Origin: a virus
DNA: 64,000 bases
Direction: 5' to 3' (one strand)
Virus record (IMG/VR): IMGVR_UViG_3300025097_002022
Span: 16,058 to 80,057 of that record
Positions 35,138 to 58,287 of the stretch are shown in pieces. The translations under genes were made by a program, and so were the position numbers. Within the stretch, counting starts at the first letter, position 1. Each line of letters opens with the position of its first letter. The notes under the pieces were generated by a model. That model was not told where the DNA came from, did no database searches, and was given only the letters and a program-made list of their open reading frames with translations.

Positions 35138-36847
35138 ATGTCAATCTTAGATAAATTAACAGAAGGCATCGTTGATCGTGATCTCTCCAAGGAAGGCGCA
35201 GCACTACTTAATAAGTGGGAACGCACCGGACTTTTAGAGGGCATCGATGGTGACCGCAAGAAGAACAGCATGGCTCGACTTCTTGAAAATCAAGCAAAGG
35301 AACTTCTTCGTGAGAGTTCCGCAATGGCAGGCGGAGACGTAGAAGGTTTCGCCGCTGTAGCATTCCCAATCGTTCGTCGTGTATTCGGTGGACTTATCGC
35401 TAACGATCTCGTAAGCGTTCAACCAATGAGCCTTCCATCAGGACTCATCTTCTTCCTCGACTTCACCGTTTCTAACGATACTGGTAGCCGTCTTGGAATG
35501 ATCTCTGCAGAATCACTTTACGGTGGTGGCGTAGTTGGTCAACAAATCACAGGCGGTGTTTCATTGTCTGGTTTGAATGCTGAGAACTCTTTCTACGCAC
35601 TCAACAACGGCTATTCTTCACCAACTCGCTCTGCAGGCTGCACAGTCACAGCTATTACCTCCGGTACTTTCGGTGGCACTGGTGATGCTCTCTGGGCATC
35701 CATCGGTGATCGCATCTGTCGCTACGATCCAGACTTAGTTTCTGGAACAACCAACGTCGTTATTGGTACAGCAACAGTTACAAGCATGGCTCAGTTGAAC
35801 TTGGACAACCTCGTTGCCATTTCTTCTTCTCAAGCCTTGGCAGGCGCACAGCAAGCTCGTCGTTTGAGTCAGCTTTCTGGTTCTGACAGTGGCTTGTGGC
35901 AAGCTGGTGATGCAAAAAGCAACGTGCTTTTGGTATGGACTTCCGATACAGCAACTCCAGTTGCTTTGTCAGCTTCATTCTGCGGCGTAGGCGAGACTCT
36001 CGTTTGGCCACAAGATGATCTCATGCAAGCCGGCGGAGGACTCGGTTCTGTCGTTGGTGATCCTCAATGGGGACTTGAAGCACAGACTGCTATCCCAGAA
36101 ATCGACATCAAAGTTGACTCTGTAAGCATCACTGCTATCACCAAAAAGCTGAAGGCTAAGTGGACTCCTGAGTTGGGACAAGATCTTAACGCATACCACA
36201 ACCTCGACGCAGAAGTAGAGCTTACCAGCATTCTCTCCGAGCAAATTGCTCTTGAGATCGACCGTGAGATCCTTGAAGATCTCGTTATGGGCGCAGCCGC
36301 TGGACGTTACTACTGGTCCCGCGCAGCAGGACGATTCGTAAACCGTCTCACTGGACAAGAAGTTGGCGCTACAACCGCTACTCCTGATTTCACTGGTACT
36401 GTTTCCGAGTGGTACGAGACTCTCGTTGAGACAATCAACGATGTCTCTGCACAGATCCATCGCAAGACTCTCCGTGGCGGAGCCAACTTCGTAGTGTGTT
36501 CACCTGAAGTTGCTAACGTCCTTGAGTTTACCGCTGGCTTCCGCGCAAACATCACTGCTGATGCAGATCGCGGCACCATCGGTGCAGTAAAAACTGGCTC
36601 ATTGAGCAAGAAGTGGGACGTATATGTCGATCCTTACTTCCCTCGCAACGTGATCCTTGTTGGTCGTAAGGGTGGTTCATTCCTCGAAAGTGGTTATGTA
36701 TACTCCCCATATGTCCCACTGCAGGTGACTCCCACCATCTTCGGAACCGAAGACTTCGTACCTCGCAAGGGTGTGATGACTCGCTACGGCAAAAAGATGG
36801 TACGTCCCGACATGTATGGACTCGTCATTGTTGTCGATCTTGTTTGA
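35138..36847 (+). CDS. gp23: Major capsid protein (gp23-like), 569 aa
   Basis: HK97-fold shell subunit of the T4 type. It starts one base after the scaffold stop. FPIVRRVFGGLIANDLVSVQ near 68-87 is a conserved gp23 region just after the expected pro-peptide cleavage. Candidate sites are LLRE (~residue 52) and GDVE (~residue 62). The C-terminal half contains SEQIALEIDREILEDL and ends with the conserved KMVRPDMYGLVIVVDL. Codon use shifts to a restricted set (CGT, GGT, CTC), as in very highly expressed genes. A strong terminator follows. Confidence 0.95.
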   Translation: MSILDKLTEGIVDRDLSKEGAALLNKWERTGLLEGIDGDRKKNSMARLLENQAKELLRESSAMAGGDVEGFAAVAFPIVRRVFGGLIANDLVSVQPMSLPSGLIFFLDFTVSNDTGSRLGMISAESLYGGGVVGQQITGGVSLSGLNAENSFYALNNGYSSPTRSAGCTVTAITSGTFGGTGDALWASIGDRICRYDPDLVSGTTNVVIGTATVTSMAQLNLDNLVAISSSQALAGAQQARRLSQLSGSDSGLWQAGDAKSNVLLVWTSDTATPVALSASFCGVGETLVWPQDDLMQAGGGLGSVVGDPQWGLEAQTAIPEIDIKVDSVSITAITKKLKAKWTPELGQDLNAYHNLDAEVELTSILSEQIALEIDREILEDLVMGAAAGRYYWSRAAGRFVNRLTGQEVGATTATPDFTGTVSEWYETLVETINDVSAQIHRKTLRGGANFVVCSPEVANVLEFTAGFRANITADADRGTIGAVKTGSLSKKWDVYVDPYFPRNVILVGRKGGSFLESGYVYSPYVPLQVTPTIFGTEDFVPRKGVMTRYGKKMVRPDMYGLVIVVDLV

Positions 36848-48851: not shown

Positions 48852-51752
48852 ATGTCTACAACAGCCCCAGAAGAGTATAAGATTCAAGGATATCTCCTCG
48901 CCAACGCGGAGGAATTGATTAAGTTGACAGGCAGAAATCTGCCGAAGAGACGCGCCGTCTCTTCAAATCAAAAAATAAACAATATGTCAAAAGGTCAACG
49001 TTTTGCAGCCCAACAGCCAGTGTATGTAAAGAAGGTTGCAAGAGATCCCACTGCCGCAGGAGATAATTTTAGTGATTTGTTCAACAGCTTCAATCCAGTC
49101 GGATCTATTGAATTTGTAGACGATTTACCGGACGCTGCCCGCCGCAAATTAACGCCTACTTTTAGAGTATTTAAGACATTGAAGCAGCACGGCACGGGGA
49201 AAGAGGTGGACTTGGAGTTGAAGAGTGGTGTCCTCGAAAAACTCTGGGCGTCGACAGCGGCAGGCACGGCTGTGCAAGATGTTGAGATACTGCGCCTCGG
49301 AGGAAACCCGGAGGAAGTCGATACGAATATAAAAGTATCAATTACTCTCTACTCTACGCACCTCGGACACCTTTTTGCAAAACAGACTCCCGCTCCATTA
49401 CCAAATTGGAAAACCAGCAAAGAATCCCCCATTCCAGCGGAGTGGAAAGAAGTTATCGAATCAGGAGTTTCGTGGATTGATTTAATTAAAATGGATCTAG
49501 GCGAAACTGCCGAAGAAGAGGCAATTAGTCATCAATATGTCCGAGCAATTGGAAAAGAATCAAAGTCTTCTGTAATGGGGGGTGAAAAATCTCACTTAGA
49601 AATGGATGAGATATCACAGAGAATCAAGATTGAATTGGGATATAAAAGAATTAAAAAACTCGCAGAGTATACTCCAGAAGAAGTAGAGAAGATAAACAAT
49701 TGGTTATCTTCTCAAACGGAGGTGCTATATCTGTCCCTGCTTGAACATGAGATTGCATTCAATGAAGACGGAACATCAACAATGCGAATAAATTATATTG
49801 CTTCAGGAGGTACAAATACATTCTCAAGACATGACGACATCCTGTTTGAACCATATTTTTACGAATTAGAAAAGCGGTGGAACGATGATATTTGTAAATT
49901 AAACAAACTCTCACCCAACAAAGAAGGTGGCGTGGGTTTGGGGAGTTACGTTCTAACGGATAACCCCTTCCACAGTAGCAAATTGAAGAGTTGGGATGCA
50001 AAAGATGTAGAAAGGAGAAAGGACTTAATAGAAGAGAGGGAGAGGTGGATTGAGGAAATTAGAACAGCGCAGTCTCAATTGATGCTGTCGGGATTATATG
50101 GTTGGGTAAAGTATTTTTCCGACGTGGAAACACATTCTTTGGCCAGTTCACATTGGCGAGAAACACAATATCTCTCAAGAGTAAAATGTACTAAAATACT
50201 TTTGAAAGATACTCTCAAGATAACTTCTAAACTATCTCGCAACGAGAATGGACAGCCGTTTGGAGTTGAAAATTATTTAGACAGGTTTTGGAGAAAAAGT
50301 AAGGAGAACAGGAAAGAATGGAAAAAGTATCATGACGATTTATCCGGCGAAGTGGATGAAATGGCTGTTTTTTCAGACCTCCAAAACACCGGCGGCAATC
50401 CGGCAGTAATATCTCAGTTTGTATTCTTGGGCGACATTATAGAGACGGCAATAGAGGTTCTCGCTTCAAATAGGAGATTTGGATATTCTGAATCCGTTGA
50501 ATCAAAATATGCTAAACGGTCTCCCAGATTTAAAGTTTGGCATAAAGGAGATTCGTCTAAAGTCGTCGAAAATGCATTCATTTTGCCATTAAACAATTTG
50601 TTCTTACGCGGTAGAAATGTGAAAGAATTTTCCACCCAAACATCAAAGATGTCCCACGATGTCCCCAGCTTTGTACGCCAAGGCGATTGGATTATGAATA
50701 GAATATACGAAGAGTATGGAGAAATTCTTTTCTCAGATATTACATATCAGAATCCAGGCAATCCAAACGAAGACATAACTATCAACCTTGCAGATCTTCC
50801 GATTTCACTTTTTGACTATAAGAGATGGTATATCGAGAATTTTGTTGCCAAAAGAAGAAGCACACTGTATCTCAAACAATTTATCGAAATGCTTATTTCG
50901 AATTATGTTCCAAATTTAATTGCTAAAGCAAGAAGAAAGGCAGGAGAGACGACAGACAAGGAAAAGCCAGTCCTTTTGATAAACAGAGAGACATTGGCAG
51001 TCCCAGTTCGGGGTTTTCTCCAACACTCCAATACAGAGAGGAATGAGCCGTTGAATGCGCTGAGTCGAAACCGCCTCAGAAAAATCTTTAAAAAAAACCA
51101 GCCCCAAGCGCTCACCAATAGCGCAACAAAGTTGCAACAAATAACAATAATATCTCAAGCATCCGTTGTCAATATAAAGCCCCCGCCAAACCAAACCAGA
51201 AGGCAGCTTAATAAGGCGAAGAATATTCCAAATATTGTATTCAACAGCAAAGCTACTGGAATTTTAGATACCCTATCTTTTCAAAAGGAGGACATGCCTG
51301 GGCTCCGCGAAGCAAGACTGTTCGAAGGAAAGAACTTTGTTGGACCCGATATTATTAGAGAAAAATACAACTGCTCATTAAGGATGAAAGGGACAACATT
51401 TTTTAAGCCAGGCAACGTTCTCTACTTAGATCCGTCTCCTTTGGACCTAGGCTTTGCAGTGGATGGAAAGTCACCCGCCCGCCTTCTCGGCTTAGGTGGA
51501 TATTATGATGTCCTCCGTGTCACTCACAACATAAACCTTTCCGGAGACAATACTTGGGAAACAGACTTGGAAACAAAGTGGACTTCCTTCGGAGAAAACG
51601 ATGGACTCCGCAAGCGGAAGATGGAATCGTGCCAGACTTCCTATAAAGCTCGGCTTGAGAATTCCCTTGATCTTTCAGATCCGAAAGTCGTCATGTCCTT
51701 ATATTCCCCAGCAAACTTGGCAAAACACTATTTCTTCAAACCAAAGCCATGA
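48852..51752 (+). CDS. Large baseplate protein, 966 aa
   Basis: No enzyme domain recognised. The protein is charged, helical in its middle third, and ends with PGNVLYLDPSPLDLGFAVDG, then LGLGGYYDVLRVTHNINLSG and a W-T-S-F motif. This is a beta-domain type I associate with baseplate hub or wedge components of marine T4-like phages, where it may follow gp27/gp6 equivalents. The stop overlaps the next start (ATGA). Baseplate role inferred from neighbours gp53 and the tube-initiator-like proteins. Confidence 0.65.
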   Translation: MSTTAPEEYKIQGYLLANAEELIKLTGRNLPKRRAVSSNQKINNMSKGQRFAAQQPVYVKKVARDPTAAGDNFSDLFNSFNPVGSIEFVDDLPDAARRKLTPTFRVFKTLKQHGTGKEVDLELKSGVLEKLWASTAAGTAVQDVEILRLGGNPEEVDTNIKVSITLYSTHLGHLFAKQTPAPLPNWKTSKESPIPAEWKEVIESGVSWIDLIKMDLGETAEEEAISHQYVRAIGKESKSSVMGGEKSHLEMDEISQRIKIELGYKRIKKLAEYTPEEVEKINNWLSSQTEVLYLSLLEHEIAFNEDGTSTMRINYIASGGTNTFSRHDDILFEPYFYELEKRWNDDICKLNKLSPNKEGGVGLGSYVLTDNPFHSSKLKSWDAKDVERRKDLIEERERWIEEIRTAQSQLMLSGLYGWVKYFSDVETHSLASSHWRETQYLSRVKCTKILLKDTLKITSKLSRNENGQPFGVENYLDRFWRKSKENRKEWKKYHDDLSGEVDEMAVFSDLQNTGGNPAVISQFVFLGDIIETAIEVLASNRRFGYSESVESKYAKRSPRFKVWHKGDSSKVVENAFILPLNNLFLRGRNVKEFSTQTSKMSHDVPSFVRQGDWIMNRIYEEYGEILFSDITYQNPGNPNEDITINLADLPISLFDYKRWYIENFVAKRRSTLYLKQFIEMLISNYVPNLIAKARRKAGETTDKEKPVLLINRETLAVPVRGFLQHSNTERNEPLNALSRNRLRKIFKKNQPQALTNSATKLQQITIISQASVVNIKPPPNQTRRQLNKAKNIPNIVFNSKATGILDTLSFQKEDMPGLREARLFEGKNFVGPDIIREKYNCSLRMKGTTFFKPGNVLYLDPSPLDLGFAVDGKSPARLLGLGGYYDVLRVTHNINLSGDNTWETDLETKWTSFGENDGLRKRKMESCQTSYKARLENSLDLSDPKVVMSLYSPANLAKHYFFKPKP

Positions 51753-53044
51753 CAACCAATTTATTAAATCGAAGTGTAGGCACAAAAGAGACATTCGATC
51801 TTCGAAAGGTGTATCTATCAGACATTGTTCCGTCCTCCAAATATACTAATTTCTATGACTCCTCTCTGGTTCACTTCTACGGTAAAGTCGATTTAGACGG
51901 AAACATTATCTATCCTTCTGAAAAGTTCTTATCAACCCTTCCGAATCCAAATAAGAAATCCGGCAGAACTTATTATGCCCTCAATTTCGTCGCAAAAGCT
52001 TTCTCAGATTTCAGAGACTATTATCTCAATGGCATCGTCTCCGGCATCACGAAGGGTGCCTCACCCATGCAGGTAATCGAGCCTATCCGAGGGTGGGAGA
52101 GTATGCACGATATATATGCTGCAAATATAGATTCTCTCTACTCAGTGCTCATCAACTCTTATTTACAGAACCCAGGACGAATAGCTGGAATAGAAAGTGC
52201 TTATCCGAAGGATTTTGATAACTTCATCCGTTCCACGAAACATCTCTTCAAGGCAAAGGGTGGTGTCGTCAAGTTAAGTCGCTCTTCTTTTATCCTCTCC
52301 ACTCATTGTCCTCTGTCCACAACTGGGCTCGCCATCGAGATTAATCCGAAAATAGACTATTCAAGCGACAAAGACAAAAATATTAACTTTTACGATAATC
52401 CGAACTTCGACTTCTACATGGAGGCTCTTAAGAAGTTTGGATTTATGGCAGACATCGATTACCCAGGGAGGCTCATCGCAGACGTTGGTTCCCCAGCGAT
52501 GCAAGAATATATGAGTGAATTTGGATTAACACTTGACACTTTGTTCGAGACGTATTATTATAAAGCAGAGAATTCCGATTATGATCTCATCAGAATCTAT
52601 CTCGCTCAGTTCTATAACAGTTATGTTACCGACTATCCGGTTAAATCCATTGTCAAGAAAAGAGGCTCAGTTCACTTGAATAAATACTCTCTCGAATCCC
52701 AAGGGCTTTTGACAAACAATAAGCCAATCCCAGTTTCCGCAACCAAAGTCATTTGCGAGAAATCAGAGCGAGATGTTATTCAGAGAAACAAGATTGACCC
52801 AGCAAACTACAGCGATAGTTATTGGTTGACAACTTGTATTGAGATGTTAAATTATGAACTTAGAAATCCTCTAAATGAGCATAATCTAAGCAAAGTGATA
52901 AAAAATGCACAAGATTTGAAAAAAAGCATTGACATCGATAGAGCCAAGTGTTATATTAATGAGGTGTTCAACAAGTTTCGATATCCAGCGAATATCACTC
53001 AGTTGGCAAATTACAAGTACGATACCAAAACTAAAACAAAATAG
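51749..53044 (+). CDS. Virion-module protein of unknown function, 431 aa
   Basis: ATGA overlap with the large baseplate gene. Tyr- and Asp-rich alpha/beta protein with segments such as EPIRGWESMHDIYAANIDSL and RSSFILSTHCPLSTTGLAIE. No catalytic or binding motif stands out. The gene closes the structural run before the polymerase gene. I associate proteins of this kind with baseplate clusters of marine T4-like phages, without a known role. Confidence 0.62.
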   Translation: MTTNLLNRSVGTKETFDLRKVYLSDIVPSSKYTNFYDSSLVHFYGKVDLDGNIIYPSEKFLSTLPNPNKKSGRTYYALNFVAKAFSDFRDYYLNGIVSGITKGASPMQVIEPIRGWESMHDIYAANIDSLYSVLINSYLQNPGRIAGIESAYPKDFDNFIRSTKHLFKAKGGVVKLSRSSFILSTHCPLSTTGLAIEINPKIDYSSDKDKNINFYDNPNFDFYMEALKKFGFMADIDYPGRLIADVGSPAMQEYMSEFGLTLDTLFETYYYKAENSDYDLIRIYLAQFYNSYVTDYPVKSIVKKRGSVHLNKYSLESQGLLTNNKPIPVSATKVICEKSERDVIQRNKIDPANYSDSYWLTTCIEMLNYELRNPLNEHNLSKVIKNAQDLKKSIDIDRAKCYINEVFNKFRYPANITQLANYKYDTKTKTK

Positions 53045-54282: not shown

Positions 54283-54990
54283 ATGAAAAGCATTATAGAC
54301 AACTGGAATAAATACACAAACGAAGTTCTAAACGAATCTTCCTTCTCTCGCATGAAGAGAATGGTGGACGAAGGGAAACAGCCTTTCATCGTCATCTCGG
54401 CAGCAAGAGATGACTTGGGCGAAGACGAGGCAGGCAACCAGAAGCGCGGCAAGATGCTAAAGAGCGACTTGAAGGCAGCGGGATACCCGTTCACTCAAGT
54501 TCTTGGTGCAGGACAGGAAGAGCCAGTTGAAGATCCAGATACAGGTGAAAAAAGCATCAAAAGAGTACTCGAAGTAACGCAGATAGTCACCACTCATCAG
54601 CGAGGAGATGTTCCTCGCGAAGAGGTGGAAGACGAAGCAGCCGCCCTATTTGAGTTGGGAAGAAGTCTATCCGCCAAATACGATCAGTTCGCCTTCATCT
54701 TTGGATATCCGATTGAAGACAAGTTCGGCAACACTGTAATGGCTATTGCTGCCTACAATGCCGACGCTCCCGCTTACGGAATGCAATATCGCATCAAGGA
54801 CGACTGGGCTGGACCTTGGCATACTATTCGCCAAGCAATCGAGAGCGATCAGTATTGGACAAAGATAGCAGGAACTAAGGGCGTCTTCATCGAAGAGAAG
54901 ATACGAGAGTTGGAAGAGATGGACACTGGGCATTATGTTCAAAAGGGATGGAAGACATCTCAAATCCTGAAATGGAAAAGTCTCTTATAG
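54283..54990 (+). CDS. Putative packaged head protein with capsid-targeting leader, 235 aa
   Basis: The start MKSIIDNWNKYTNEVLNESS matches the 13885 product's leader (M-x-S-I-x-(E/D)-N-W-N-x-Y...E-V-L-x-E-x-S-F). It ends in a possible prohead-protease site LNE at residues 16-18. The body begins PFIVISAARDDLGEDEAGNQ, then LKAAGYPFTQVLGAGQE, reminiscent of DUF3293-type proteins of unknown function. A late-type element is upstream though neighbours are replication genes. Packaging into the head and injection is a hypothesis. Confidence 0.7.
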   Translation: MKSIIDNWNKYTNEVLNESSFSRMKRMVDEGKQPFIVISAARDDLGEDEAGNQKRGKMLKSDLKAAGYPFTQVLGAGQEEPVEDPDTGEKSIKRVLEVTQIVTTHQRGDVPREEVEDEAAALFELGRSLSAKYDQFAFIFGYPIEDKFGNTVMAIAAYNADAPAYGMQYRIKDDWAGPWHTIRQAIESDQYWTKIAGTKGVFIEEKIRELEEMDTGHYVQKGWKTSQILKWKSLL

Positions 54991-55003: not shown

Positions 55004-55849
55004 ATGGACACAGTGATAGGACTGGGGAAGGCAGGATGCGCCATCGCAGACAAGTTCTCCCAATATCCGCAATACAGGATATTTAAAATTGACTCCGAGG
55101 ATTTAAGTAAAGACGCCAAGAGGTCAAAGCTCCTTAAAAGGCTCTCATCTCCAGAAATGTATGAAAGTGCAGTCCCGTCAATGAAGACTTTCTTCAAATC
55201 TGCGACAAACGATGTCCTGTTCGTTGTTTCTGGATCAGGGATGATATCCGGAGCAACTTTAAGAATTCTCGAACAGTTATCAAAAATGAAAAAGAACATC
55301 AACGTTCTCTATGTCAAGCCCGATGTCGAGTTTCTTGGTTCTGTCAATAGAGAACAAGAACGTCTTGTGAGAAATGTCCTTCAGGAGTACGCCCGCTCAG
55401 CAGTGATAAAAAGGCTCTATCTCATTGACAATAAAATCGTTGAATCAGTTCTTGGAGACGTTCCGGTTTTCGGATATTATGATAAACTTAATGACTTGAT
55501 TGTCTCAACATTCCACATGATAAATGTTTATGACCACCAGAAGGCAGTCCACGACACTCCGTTTGAGTCCAGTGATATTACCAAGATAAGTACCGTTGGA
55601 GTTGTTAATGTGGACACTGGAGAAGAAAAATTGCTCTTTCCTCTTGAAAACGTTTCCGAAAAGTGTTATTATTATGCTGTTAATCGGAAAGTTCTTGAGA
55701 CAGATGGAACTCTCCTGAGAAAACTAACTGACGGGATAAGCAAGAACGTCGGAGAAGAAGATATCAAGACAGCATTTCAGATTCACTCGACAACATATGA
55801 GCAGAGCTATGGATATCTCGTTGTCAACACCAGCAAAACAAATAATTGA
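55004..55849 (+). CDS. Tubulin/FtsZ-like protein candidate, 281 aa
   Basis: The N-terminus TVIGLGKAGCAIADKF parallels the FtsZ opening strand and loop (VIGVGGAGxNAV). Near residues 64-85, DVLFVVSGSGMISGATLRIL sits where tubulin/FtsZ have the GGGTGTG signature, here degenerate (GSGMISG). Later PVFGYYDKLNDLIVSTFHMI is helical. Phage tubulins (PhuZ, TubZ) build filaments that position DNA or capsids; PhuZ is about 315 aa. GTP binding is not assured given the altered loop. A Rossmann-like enzyme is the alternative. Confidence 0.5.
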   Translation: MDTVIGLGKAGCAIADKFSQYPQYRIFKIDSEDLSKDAKRSKLLKRLSSPEMYESAVPSMKTFFKSATNDVLFVVSGSGMISGATLRILEQLSKMKKNINVLYVKPDVEFLGSVNREQERLVRNVLQEYARSAVIKRLYLIDNKIVESVLGDVPVFGYYDKLNDLIVSTFHMINVYDHQKAVHDTPFESSDITKISTVGVVNVDTGEEKLLFPLENVSEKCYYYAVNRKVLETDGTLLRKLTDGISKNVGEEDIKTAFQIHSTTYEQSYGYLVVNTSKTNN

Positions 55850-55857
55850 GAGATAAA

Positions 55858-56136
55858 ATGATACTAAGAGCCCTCGGAACAATTTTGAGCTTCACAAAAA
55901 ACCACTGGAGACGGGTGATGGGAGTGGTAATCTTCTCCGCTATCGGAACCCTTGCAGCGCTTAAGGTATTCGAGAACGGCGTCGATATGGGAAGAATGGT
56001 TGGACACTGCGAACTCTCATGCCGGGTTCTTGGGACAGAATTTGTCGCCCTCGACACAGACACAAGTTGTCAATGTGAGTCCCCAGGTGGATTCATCATC
56101 GGCATTCCGATGGATCACAGTTATTTCGACAGATAA
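55858..56136 (+). CDS. Small membrane protein with Cys-rich C-terminus, 92 aa
   Basis: ATG 55858 is preferred to TTG 55846. One hydrophobic segment (VMGVVIFSAIGTLAALKVF, ~20-38) follows a basic start. The remainder has four Cys (CELSC and CQC) that suggest a zinc site or disulfides in the periplasm. No family recognised; superinfection exclusion or a phage membrane factor are possible roles without direct support. Confidence 0.6.
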   Translation: MILRALGTILSFTKNHWRRVMGVVIFSAIGTLAALKVFENGVDMGRMVGHCELSCRVLGTEFVALDTDTSCQCESPGGFIIGIPMDHSYFDR

Positions 56137-56263: not shown

Positions 56264-57040
56264 ATGGCAATTGATATTAATAAAATGAAGGCTCGTAAGC
56301 AAGCCTTGGAGAACCGAGGCGGCAACAGTAGCTCGTTCTGGCGTCCACAAGACGGAGAGCAAACTATCCGAATCGTCCCCACAGCGGACGGAGATCCTTT
56401 CAAAGATTACTGGTTCCACTATAACGTGGGCAAGAATCCCGGATTTCTCTCTCCAAAGAAGAACTTTGGCGAAGACGATCCTCTTGACACTTTCGTTCGC
56501 AAGCTTTTCAACGAGGGAACCGAGGAGTCAATCAAGGCTGCAAAGAACCTTATGGCTCGCCAACGATTCTTTTCTCCTGTCCTTGTCCGAGGTGAGGAAG
56601 AGAAGGGTGTCCGTATCTGGGGATATGGAAAGACGGTATATGAGCAATTGCTCAATCTTGTCTTAAATCCAGAATATGGCGATATCACTGATGTCGATTC
56701 TGGAACGGATCTCGTCCTTCATTATGGAAAGCCCGCAGGAGCAAGTTTCCCACAAACAAAACTTACTCCACGACGCCGGAATTCCGTCTTATGCGACGAA
56801 GCTGTCGGTGGCGACGAAAAGTGTACGGAACTCCTTGAAGCAATTCCTGAGTTCGACACCTTGTTCGAGCGCAAGACACCAGAAGAAGTTGGCACCTTAT
56901 TGGATGCATATCTTCTTGGCGACAACGCGGAAACTGGAGAATCAGGAGACACTGATGCTGCTCCTACCACCACCACTACATCGACAACCGATGCTGTGTC
57001 CTCCGTCGATGCCGCCTTCAATGATCTAATGGGAGCCTGA
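56264..57040 (+). CDS. gp32: Single-stranded DNA-binding protein (gp32-like), 258 aa
   Basis: gp32 coats single strands for replication and recombination. The basic N-terminus (INKMKARKQALENRGGN) resembles the cooperativity region. The core has SFWRPQDGEQTIRIVP, then KDYWFHYNVGKNPGFLSPKK. The C-terminus is acidic and flexible with a Thr run, ending VDAAFNDLMGA, the expected protein-binding tail. No T4-type zinc ligand cluster is evident. Its own promoter and long leader agree with high expression. UvsX follows. Confidence 0.87.
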   Translation: MAIDINKMKARKQALENRGGNSSSFWRPQDGEQTIRIVPTADGDPFKDYWFHYNVGKNPGFLSPKKNFGEDDPLDTFVRKLFNEGTEESIKAAKNLMARQRFFSPVLVRGEEEKGVRIWGYGKTVYEQLLNLVLNPEYGDITDVDSGTDLVLHYGKPAGASFPQTKLTPRRRNSVLCDEAVGGDEKCTELLEAIPEFDTLFERKTPEEVGTLLDAYLLGDNAETGESGDTDAAPTTTTTSTTDAVSSVDAAFNDLMGA

Positions 57041-57153
57041 TCCACTCCATCGAACTGAGTAGCGGGACATAAATGCCCTTTGTCAGAAGACGCTATTCAC
57101 CCACGGGGGGGCACAGGGATATCAGGTGCCTCACACTTTATTCGGAGAGTAAT

Positions 57154-58287
57154 ATGGCGCGAGCTAAAAACAAAGCAAAAGCAGGCAAACTTAGCATGGC
57201 AGATATGCGTGCCCTCGTTAACAAGCGAGCAGGTATTAATGTTGCCCATAATTTAACCGAGGAGAATCCAACAGAAGTAAAAGATTGGATACCAACTGGC
57301 TCTCGTTGGTTAGATTCTATAATCTGTCGAGGAAAACTCTCAGGTATTCCTGTTGGTAAAATTGTTGAGATAGCTGGATTAGAGGCAACAGGTAAATCCT
57401 ATATGGCTGCTCAGATCGCAGCCAATGCTCAAAAGATGGGAGTTGATGTCATTTATTTCGACTCAGAGTCCGCAATTGATCCTGCTTTTCTTGAAAAGAT
57501 CGGATGTGATTTGAGTCGTCTTCTCTATGTGCAAGCTGCGTCTGTAGAGTTCGTCTTGGAGACAATTGAGGACTTACTTGCAAATAATGAAAATCGAATG
57601 TTATTTATTTGGGACTCTTTGGCATTGACGCCCGCTATTTCCGATATCGAAGGGGATTTTAACCCTCAGTCATCAATGGCAGTGAAGCCTCGTATCCTTG
57701 CAAAGGCGATGTCGAAATTAACTGTGCCAATTGCAAATGCTCAATGCACTTTCCTCGTCCTCAATCAATTGAAGACGAACATTACCCGCTCTCCCTCCGA
57801 GGCAATGACTACACCATATGTCACACCCGGCGGCAAAGCGATGATCTACGCTTATTCTTTACGAATCTGGCTAACTGGTCGAAAAGCCAAGGCATCCTTT
57901 GTTTTGGACAATAATGGATTCCGTATCGGCTCAGAAGTTAAGGTAAGGTTGGAGAAATCCCGTTTTGGAACCCAAGGTAGGCAGTGTAATTTCCAGATTT
58001 TATGGGGCGACGATACCATCGGCATTATGGACGATGAGAGTCTGTTCGATGCCATCGGAGGATCAAATAGTCTGCAGCGCTCCGGCGCATGGTATTCTCT
58101 TCTTGACTCCAATGGAAATGTTCTTGGAAACAAATTTCAATCTGCAACATGGCTTGATCGAATAAAAGACGATGTGTTTCGTCAAAGAGTATACGACATT
58201 ATGGACGAGGAAGTCATCCATAAGTTTGATAAACGGGAAGGCAACGCTTCCGACTTTTACGAAGACGAAGAAGGAGTAGAAAACTAA
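57154..58287 (+). CDS. uvsX: UvsX/RecA-like recombinase, 377 aa
   Basis: Strand-exchange ATPase that drives recombination-dependent replication with gp32 and the Mre11-Rad50 protein. ATG 57154 has GGAGAG upstream; an in-frame start at 57073 is unlikely. Walker A is GLEATGKS (~73-80), the Glu-bearing strand FDSESAIDP (~108-116), Walker B MLFIWDSLA (~149-157), and VLNQLKTN resembles the loop-1 region. Length is close to T4 UvsX (391). Confidence 0.93.
   Translation: MARAKNKAKAGKLSMADMRALVNKRAGINVAHNLTEENPTEVKDWIPTGSRWLDSIICRGKLSGIPVGKIVEIAGLEATGKSYMAAQIAANAQKMGVDVIYFDSESAIDPAFLEKIGCDLSRLLYVQAASVEFVLETIEDLLANNENRMLFIWDSLALTPAISDIEGDFNPQSSMAVKPRILAKAMSKLTVPIANAQCTFLVLNQLKTNITRSPSEAMTTPYVTPGGKAMIYAYSLRIWLTGRKAKASFVLDNNGFRIGSEVKVRLEKSRFGTQGRQCNFQILWGDDTIGIMDDESLFDAIGGSNSLQRSGAWYSLLDSNGNVLGNKFQSATWLDRIKDDVFRQRVYDIMDEEVIHKFDKREGNASDFYEDEEGVEN

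Follow-up and report, generated by a model that had tools for sequence, protein, structure and literature searches.

The window analysed here, 64,000 nucleotides of an IMG/VR virus record (IMGVR_UViG_3300025097_002022), contains an open reading frame that raises two questions: whether a phage of the T4 type carries a diverged member of the tubulin superfamily and, if so, what such a protein does amid genes of DNA replication. The reading frame, hereafter TUB, is confirmed by its ATG at 55004 and by a stop codon ending at 55849, which gives a protein of 281 residues, and it is present in a single copy in the whole 80,057-base virus record. Phage tubulins described to date fall mainly into PhuZ-like and TubZ-like groups, both of which are filament-forming GTPases, and our survey of the open-licence literature gave no account of a tubulin in any marine phage of the T4 type. 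The original prediction took TUB for a possible divergent phage tubulin/FtsZ homologue, pointing to two segments, VIGLGKAGCAIADKF (residues 4–18) and VVSGSGMISGATLRILEQL (residues 74–92), that were said to occupy the positions and spacing of FtsZ motifs.

Table 1. Features of the TUB gene and of its surroundings in the window.
Feature	Position	Strand	Basis or remark
gp23-type major capsid protein, T4 superfamily marker	35138..36847	+	PF07068 E 6e-61
P431, conserved protein upstream of POLA	51749..53044	+	80 loci
POLA, polymerase-domain-only family A DNA polymerase, 398 aa	53051..54247	+	PF00476 E 5e-14
H235, accessory ORF between POLA and TUB (235 aa)	54283..54990	+	Window's subclade only; 11 hits
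TUB, predicted tubulin/FtsZ-fold protein, 281 aa	55004..55849	+	ORF reading, AlphaFold model, Foldseek, hhalign
T1-like loop, residues 6–16 (GLGKAGCAIAD)	55019..55051	+	Conservation; aligned to FtsZ GVGGAGGNA
T4/G-box position, residues 76–85 (SGSGMISGAT), degenerate	55229..55258	+	Conservation; aligned to FtsZ T4
Asn143, T6 guanine-contact position	55430..55432	+	N in 126/133; aligned to the Asn of FtsZ 'IPN'
Central helix H7, residues 158–177, with Y158/Y159 and Asn163	55475..55534	+	DSSP on model; N163 126/133
Loop at the FtsZ T7/H8 site, residues 178–194; no helix, no conserved acid	55535..55585	+	DSSP, two models
C-terminal (activation-like) beta domain, S7–S10; H10 present, H9 absent	55586..55831	+	Two models
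M96, small single-TM protein with Cys-rich tail	55846..56136	+	Window's subclade; 30 loci; ATG probably 55858
gp32-like ssDNA-binding protein	56264..57040	+	PF08804 E 7e-10, phrog_1192 E 2e-23; 90 loci
UvsX/RecA-like recombinase	57073..58287	+	phrog_97 E 8e-57; 71 loci; start probably downstream of 57073

Predicted fold and profile homology of TUB

An AlphaFold prediction for the window TUB, made with 19 sequences, reaches a pLDDT of 88.8 and a pTM of 0.88. Because the pLDDT varied between 56 and 89 among its five models, the prediction was repeated on a relative, L290, which is 34% identical to the window TUB; with 44 sequences, its pLDDT is 94.2 and the five models lie between 93.4 and 94.2. 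Both predicted models contain the two-domain tubulin fold with the central helix H7. Foldseek against the PDB reveals that, for either model, the best 50 matches listed are all FtsZ or TubZ, with best E values of 3.9e-15 (window TUB) and 1.6e-11 (L290) and with a TM-score on the query of 0.61–0.75 for nearly all listed matches (outlier 7yop_B, 0.42). The FtsZ/tubulin chains that top the structure search align over approximately 310 columns, H7 and the C-terminal sheet included. In the viral library, the top match to the TUB model is A0A6J5RW92, a phage FtsZ recorded as 'FtsZ cell division GTPase' of an uncultured Caudovirales phage (E 1.6e-15, TM 0.80 on query), which differs from TUB in its length of 452 residues and is 15% identical to it; PhuZ and other phage tubulins follow. 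These comparisons, which start from predicted models, support a tubulin/FtsZ fold for TUB.

Comparison of profiles points in the same direction. The hhalign comparison profiles (FtsZ, PhuZ and two Rossmann enzymes) were built from genomes and isolates, because IMG/VR scans seeded with FtsZ and PhuZ gave no match. Against FtsZ, the first 86 TUB sequences yield a P value of 3.6e-4 over 154 columns, and the full set of 133 yields 5.3e-5 with a score of 41.2, the stretch from T1 to H7 being in register over 159 columns, whereas the match to PhuZ is weaker (score 32.9, P 9e-4, 94 columns). As controls, the two Rossmann enzymes score 21.2 and 24.3 over only 17–44 columns, the reversed profile scores 13.6 and 40 column-shuffled profiles score at most 29.8, so that the TUB–FtsZ signal appears modest, yet specific. 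The same register aligns the two segments of the original prediction with FtsZ T1 and T4, which bears out their positions but not their spacing: they are approximately 70 residues apart, closer than in FtsZ because the T2–T3 region is compressed. On the other hand, Pfam, PHROGs and NCBIfam give no significant match for TUB, and Pfam gives no hit at all, PF00091 included. The NCBIfam ftsZ model reaches at best E 0.016 and does so in only 4 of 44 members, phmmer against the PDB ranks FtsZ and TubZ first but at non-significant E values of 0.3–1.3, and PDB profile searches find no relative. Sequence homology to FtsZ seems detectable by profiles, and we regard it as borderline given the absent PF00091 match.

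TUB begins with GxGxxG and single members give weak matches to dehydrogenase models (E 0.003–0.04), both of which would suit a Rossmann-type dinucleotide enzyme whose tubulin match is an artefact of shared topology. The structure search, however, ranks FtsZ/tubulin first over the whole two-domain length, H7 and C-terminal sheet included, and the Rossmann-enzyme profiles align across short stretches only. The identity of TUB as a Rossmann enzyme is rejected on these grounds, and we give it hardly any credence; between the two folds that the original prediction had set against each other, all 50 listed PDB matches of each model decide for tubulin.

In line with a T4-like genome, the record carries the gp23 capsid family and a portal, but its PolA consists of the polymerase domain only. 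With the fold matching FtsZ and TubZ and the gp23 family present, the proposal that a T4-like genome encodes a diverged phage homologue of tubulin and FtsZ holds. By capsid, the nearest named isolates are Flavobacterium phage immuto, Microcystis phage Mel-JY01 and Rhodothermus RM378; a polymerase-domain-only PolA of 398 residues in a T4-superfamily phage is itself reminiscent of RM378-type Far-T4 phages. The TUB family profile finds no TUB in immuto, Mel-JY01 or RM378 and none in four Far-T4 records, whereas seven TUB-bearing records do match. The corresponding block of phage immuto reads PolA, two small genes that take the place of TUB, SSB, RecA, exonuclease and DnaB; since the PolA–SSB–RecA order is kept there with no TUB, some replisomes of this type do without it.

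Occurrence and gene neighbourhood

One-sequence searches of IMG/VR yield 27 relatives of TUB, and a scan with an alignment yields at least 581 confirmed members among at least 600 candidates. The records are all environmental and mostly fragments. From loci fetched via TUB and via the neighbouring polymerase, we assembled 133 distinct full-length sequences; grouped at 60% identity, they form 44 clusters, and the lowest identity is 30%. Across 44 sequences spanning 30–60% identity, eight residues are invariant. In two contigs, L024 and L026, TUB is broken into two ORFs, through either a sequencing error or a genuine disruption. With two queries and even at E 1 to 10, tblastn finds no TUB in 50,697 phage records, and in isolates phiKZ PhuZ (gp39) finds 179 records where the window TUB finds none. 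A search of 84,980 bacterial and archaeal genomes gives a single match, in a WOR-3 MAG, which we rejected as a cellular homologue because it has the same phage gene order and is a phage piece inside the bin. This piece of the TUB phage lineage (L107, CP070664.1 2243213-2260046) lies in a 2.8-Mb MAG chromosome with its gene order unchanged, as a result of either misassembly or integration. TUB is a large family, conserved in a big group of uncultured ocean phages.

The gene order across loci is P966 – P431 – POLA – TUB – (M96) – gp32 – UvsX, and TUB takes the same position in more than 100 contigs. Among 107 TUB loci, many of them on short contigs, POLA is a neighbour in 97, gp32 in 90, P431 in 80 and UvsX in 71. 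Conversely, TUB is present in all 69 new loci retrieved with the POLA alignment, and a scan seeded with the window POLA finds TUB in every locus having enough downstream sequence. In 54 of the 69, TUB starts between 15 bases before and 2 bases after the end of POLA. Approximately one fifth of the POLA loci, for example L239 and L253, instead have a gap of 250–310 bases, room for a small gene. Upstream, P431 has no match in Pfam, PHROGs or isolates, and the large conserved protein P966 (window 48852-51752; 60 loci) matches no PHROG family. Directly downstream of TUB, M96 is predicted to span the membrane with a single helix, is basic at its N-terminus and ends in a tail of the form HCExxC...CQC; it could be a membrane partner of TUB, or unrelated.

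Putative nucleotide-pocket positions and the assembly face

Sites were assigned from the hhalign register together with the order of secondary-structure elements. In the T1 loop, G6 and G8 are found in 133/133 sequences, G11 in 132 and C12 in 125. Additionally, D30 at the T2 position is kept in 118/133, the pair E51-x-x-E54 in the compressed T3 region in 124 and 129, and the T6 and H7 asparagines are kept as listed in Table 1. Conservation across 133 distinct homologues, here and at the T4 position (below), shows that the two segments of the original prediction are not a matter of chance. We infer that TUB has kept its ability to bind a nucleotide, GTP or GDP being the likeliest, via T1 (GLGxAGC), D30, N143 and N163. 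The spacing of Y159 and N163 on H7 presumably recalls the guanine-stacking tyrosine and contact asparagine of tubulin, which we take as a lead only.

The T4 position, by contrast with the FtsZ motif, is degenerate: G77, G79 and S82 are kept in 110, 117 and 122 of the 133 sequences, respectively, while the GGGTG(S/T)G box occurs in 0/133 and GxGx(I/V)SGA stands in its place. No conserved T7 acid is found, an N..D pattern following H7 in just 33/133 sequences. Neither predicted model has a helix H8 or H9; in both, a loop of 17 residues runs from H7 straight into the C-terminal sheet. In protofilaments of phiKZ TubZ, tubulin and FtsZ, the contact between subunits is made by T7, the base of H8 and S9, with the catalytic aspartate located on T7 (PMC3678025). 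Since the T7 loop, H8 and the G-box are missing, canonical protofilament assembly and GTP hydrolysis by TUB are unlikely, and the earlier suggestion that GTPase activity may be lost gains support. TUB thus appears to retain the nucleotide pocket, as read from the alignment and not from geometry, while the assembly face is deleted. TUB also has conserved surfaces that are new: Q127-x-Y-x-R-S132 on H5, H171-M-x-N174 at the end of H7, E207-E-K and the tyrosines Y222, Y224, Y265, Y269 and Y271.

Possible roles and relation to known tubulins

On balance, we lean towards TUB being a new and strongly diverged tubulin-superfamily family of the Far-T4 replication block that serves as a nucleotide-liganded scaffold or regulator and not as a PhuZ-like spindle. 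The family is fixed in the PolA – TUB – gp32 – UvsX block of a large marine Far-T4 lineage. In this proposal, a TUB subunit lacking the G-box, the T7 loop and H8 could not offer its neighbour's pocket a catalytic bottom face, and canonical GTP-hydrolysing protofilaments would not form. TUB would instead act within the phage replication machinery through its own conserved surfaces, namely Q127-x-Y-x-R-S132, H171-M-x-N174 and the Tyr-rich C-terminal sheet. The replication role is suggested by gene position alone. Computation establishes the predicted fold, the homology to FtsZ, the conservation and the linkage, whereas nucleotide binding, the loss of assembly and hydrolysis, and the part played in replication are deductions. 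More tentatively, and with considerable doubt, TUB might be a nucleotide-binding, non-polymerising tubulin fold that is a core part of the replisome, as partner of the polymerase or of the ssDNA-binding protein, in an abundant lineage of ocean phages. If true, a tubulin would have left the cytoskeleton and been recruited to a phage replisome.

The predicted fold and the place of the gene inside a replication block would also suit a cytomotive tubulin that, like PhuZ or TubZ, positions or segregates replicating phage DNA through a non-canonical polymer contact, and the longitudinal contact of PhuZ does vary between crystal forms (PMC3678025). We nevertheless consider such a filament unlikely: neither model has T7, H8 or H9 and no member retains the G-box, TUB is without a long acidic C-terminal tail of the PhuZ type, the phages have a family A polymerase and the usual size of T4 types (the longest contig of the lineage among those listed has 204 kb), and a search with phiKZ gp54 finds no chimallin relative in six TUB-bearing, possibly incomplete records, whereas the phiKZ control matches. 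TUB could instead be an accessory subunit dedicated to the exonuclease-less PolA, acting for instance in processivity or fidelity. This role would account for the unbroken POLA–TUB linkage (69/69), for the overlapping or abutting gene ends in most loci and for a POLA that consists of the polymerase domain only, 398 residues. Against it, the genes are separated by 250–310 bases in approximately one fifth of loci, with a 235-residue ORF there in the window, the related immuto PolA works without TUB, and operon conservation favours PolA no more than gp32; we judge this subunit role to be distinctly unlikely.

The combination of conserved top-face residues with a deleted bottom face is, on the other hand, the expected look of a one-sided cap, and FtsZ is commonly targeted by phages (T7 Gp0.4, lambda Kil, P1 Icd). 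TUB could accordingly be imagined as an FtsZ mimic whose nucleotide-loaded top face takes up the T7 loop of host FtsZ and, having no bottom face of its own, caps the filament and poisons division. However, TUB sits in the middle of a replication block and is lineage-wide at 30–60% identity, whereas genes for taking over the host tend to be small, early and patchily distributed, and the known phage inhibitors of FtsZ are short peptides and not tubulin-fold proteins; such mimicry strikes us as quite improbable. TUB is a third, numerous phage tubulin family, found in T4-superfamily phages and missed earlier since it escapes Pfam, PHROGs, NCBIfam and PDB profile searches. It is a naturally occurring example in which to ask what role is left to a tubulin that does not polymerise and whether the tubulin fold can serve DNA replication directly, and since the protein is short, needs no predicted membrane segment for its fold and is predicted with high confidence, this question is open to bench experiments.

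Comparison with the known members of the superfamily places TUB closest to FtsZ, its best structural and profile match, with which it has in common the N-terminal nucleotide domain, the central H7, the C-terminal beta domain, the T1 glycines and the guanine-contact positions. It is only 8–16% identical to FtsZ, however, and differs in having no GGGTG(S/T)G, T7 acid or H8/H9, in its 281 residues with no linker or C-terminal peptide, and in its place in a phage replication block where ftsZ lies in the dcw cluster. With PhuZ of phiKZ-like jumbo phages it shares a phage-encoded tubulin fold (BFVD match to Noxifer PhuZ, E 1.6e-7), yet both fold and profile match PhuZ less well than FtsZ, and TUB is without the assembly face. 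TUB does not appear to be a PhuZ; with FtsZ the better match, no chimallin relative in the six possibly incomplete records and the bottom half required for protofilaments of the PhuZ type missing, the idea that TUB extends the biology of PhuZ and the phage nucleus is not supported. TubZ of plasmid and phage partition is matched in fold (4ei7, 4ei8 and 2xka, E about 1e-13 to 1e-10), but its polymerising elements and long C-terminal tail are not found in TUB, and no gene resembling that of its partner TubR stands out among the conserved neighbours. A precedent for strong divergence within the superfamily is provided by FtsZl1 and FtsZl2, the former without recognisable T6–H7 (Makarova and Koonin 2010, PMC2875224). 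These proteins are cellular, retain the GTP-binding box and possess coiled-coil or additional C-terminal domains (PMC2875224), whereas TUB is phage-borne, loses the GTP-binding box and keeps T6/H7 and the C-terminal sheet.
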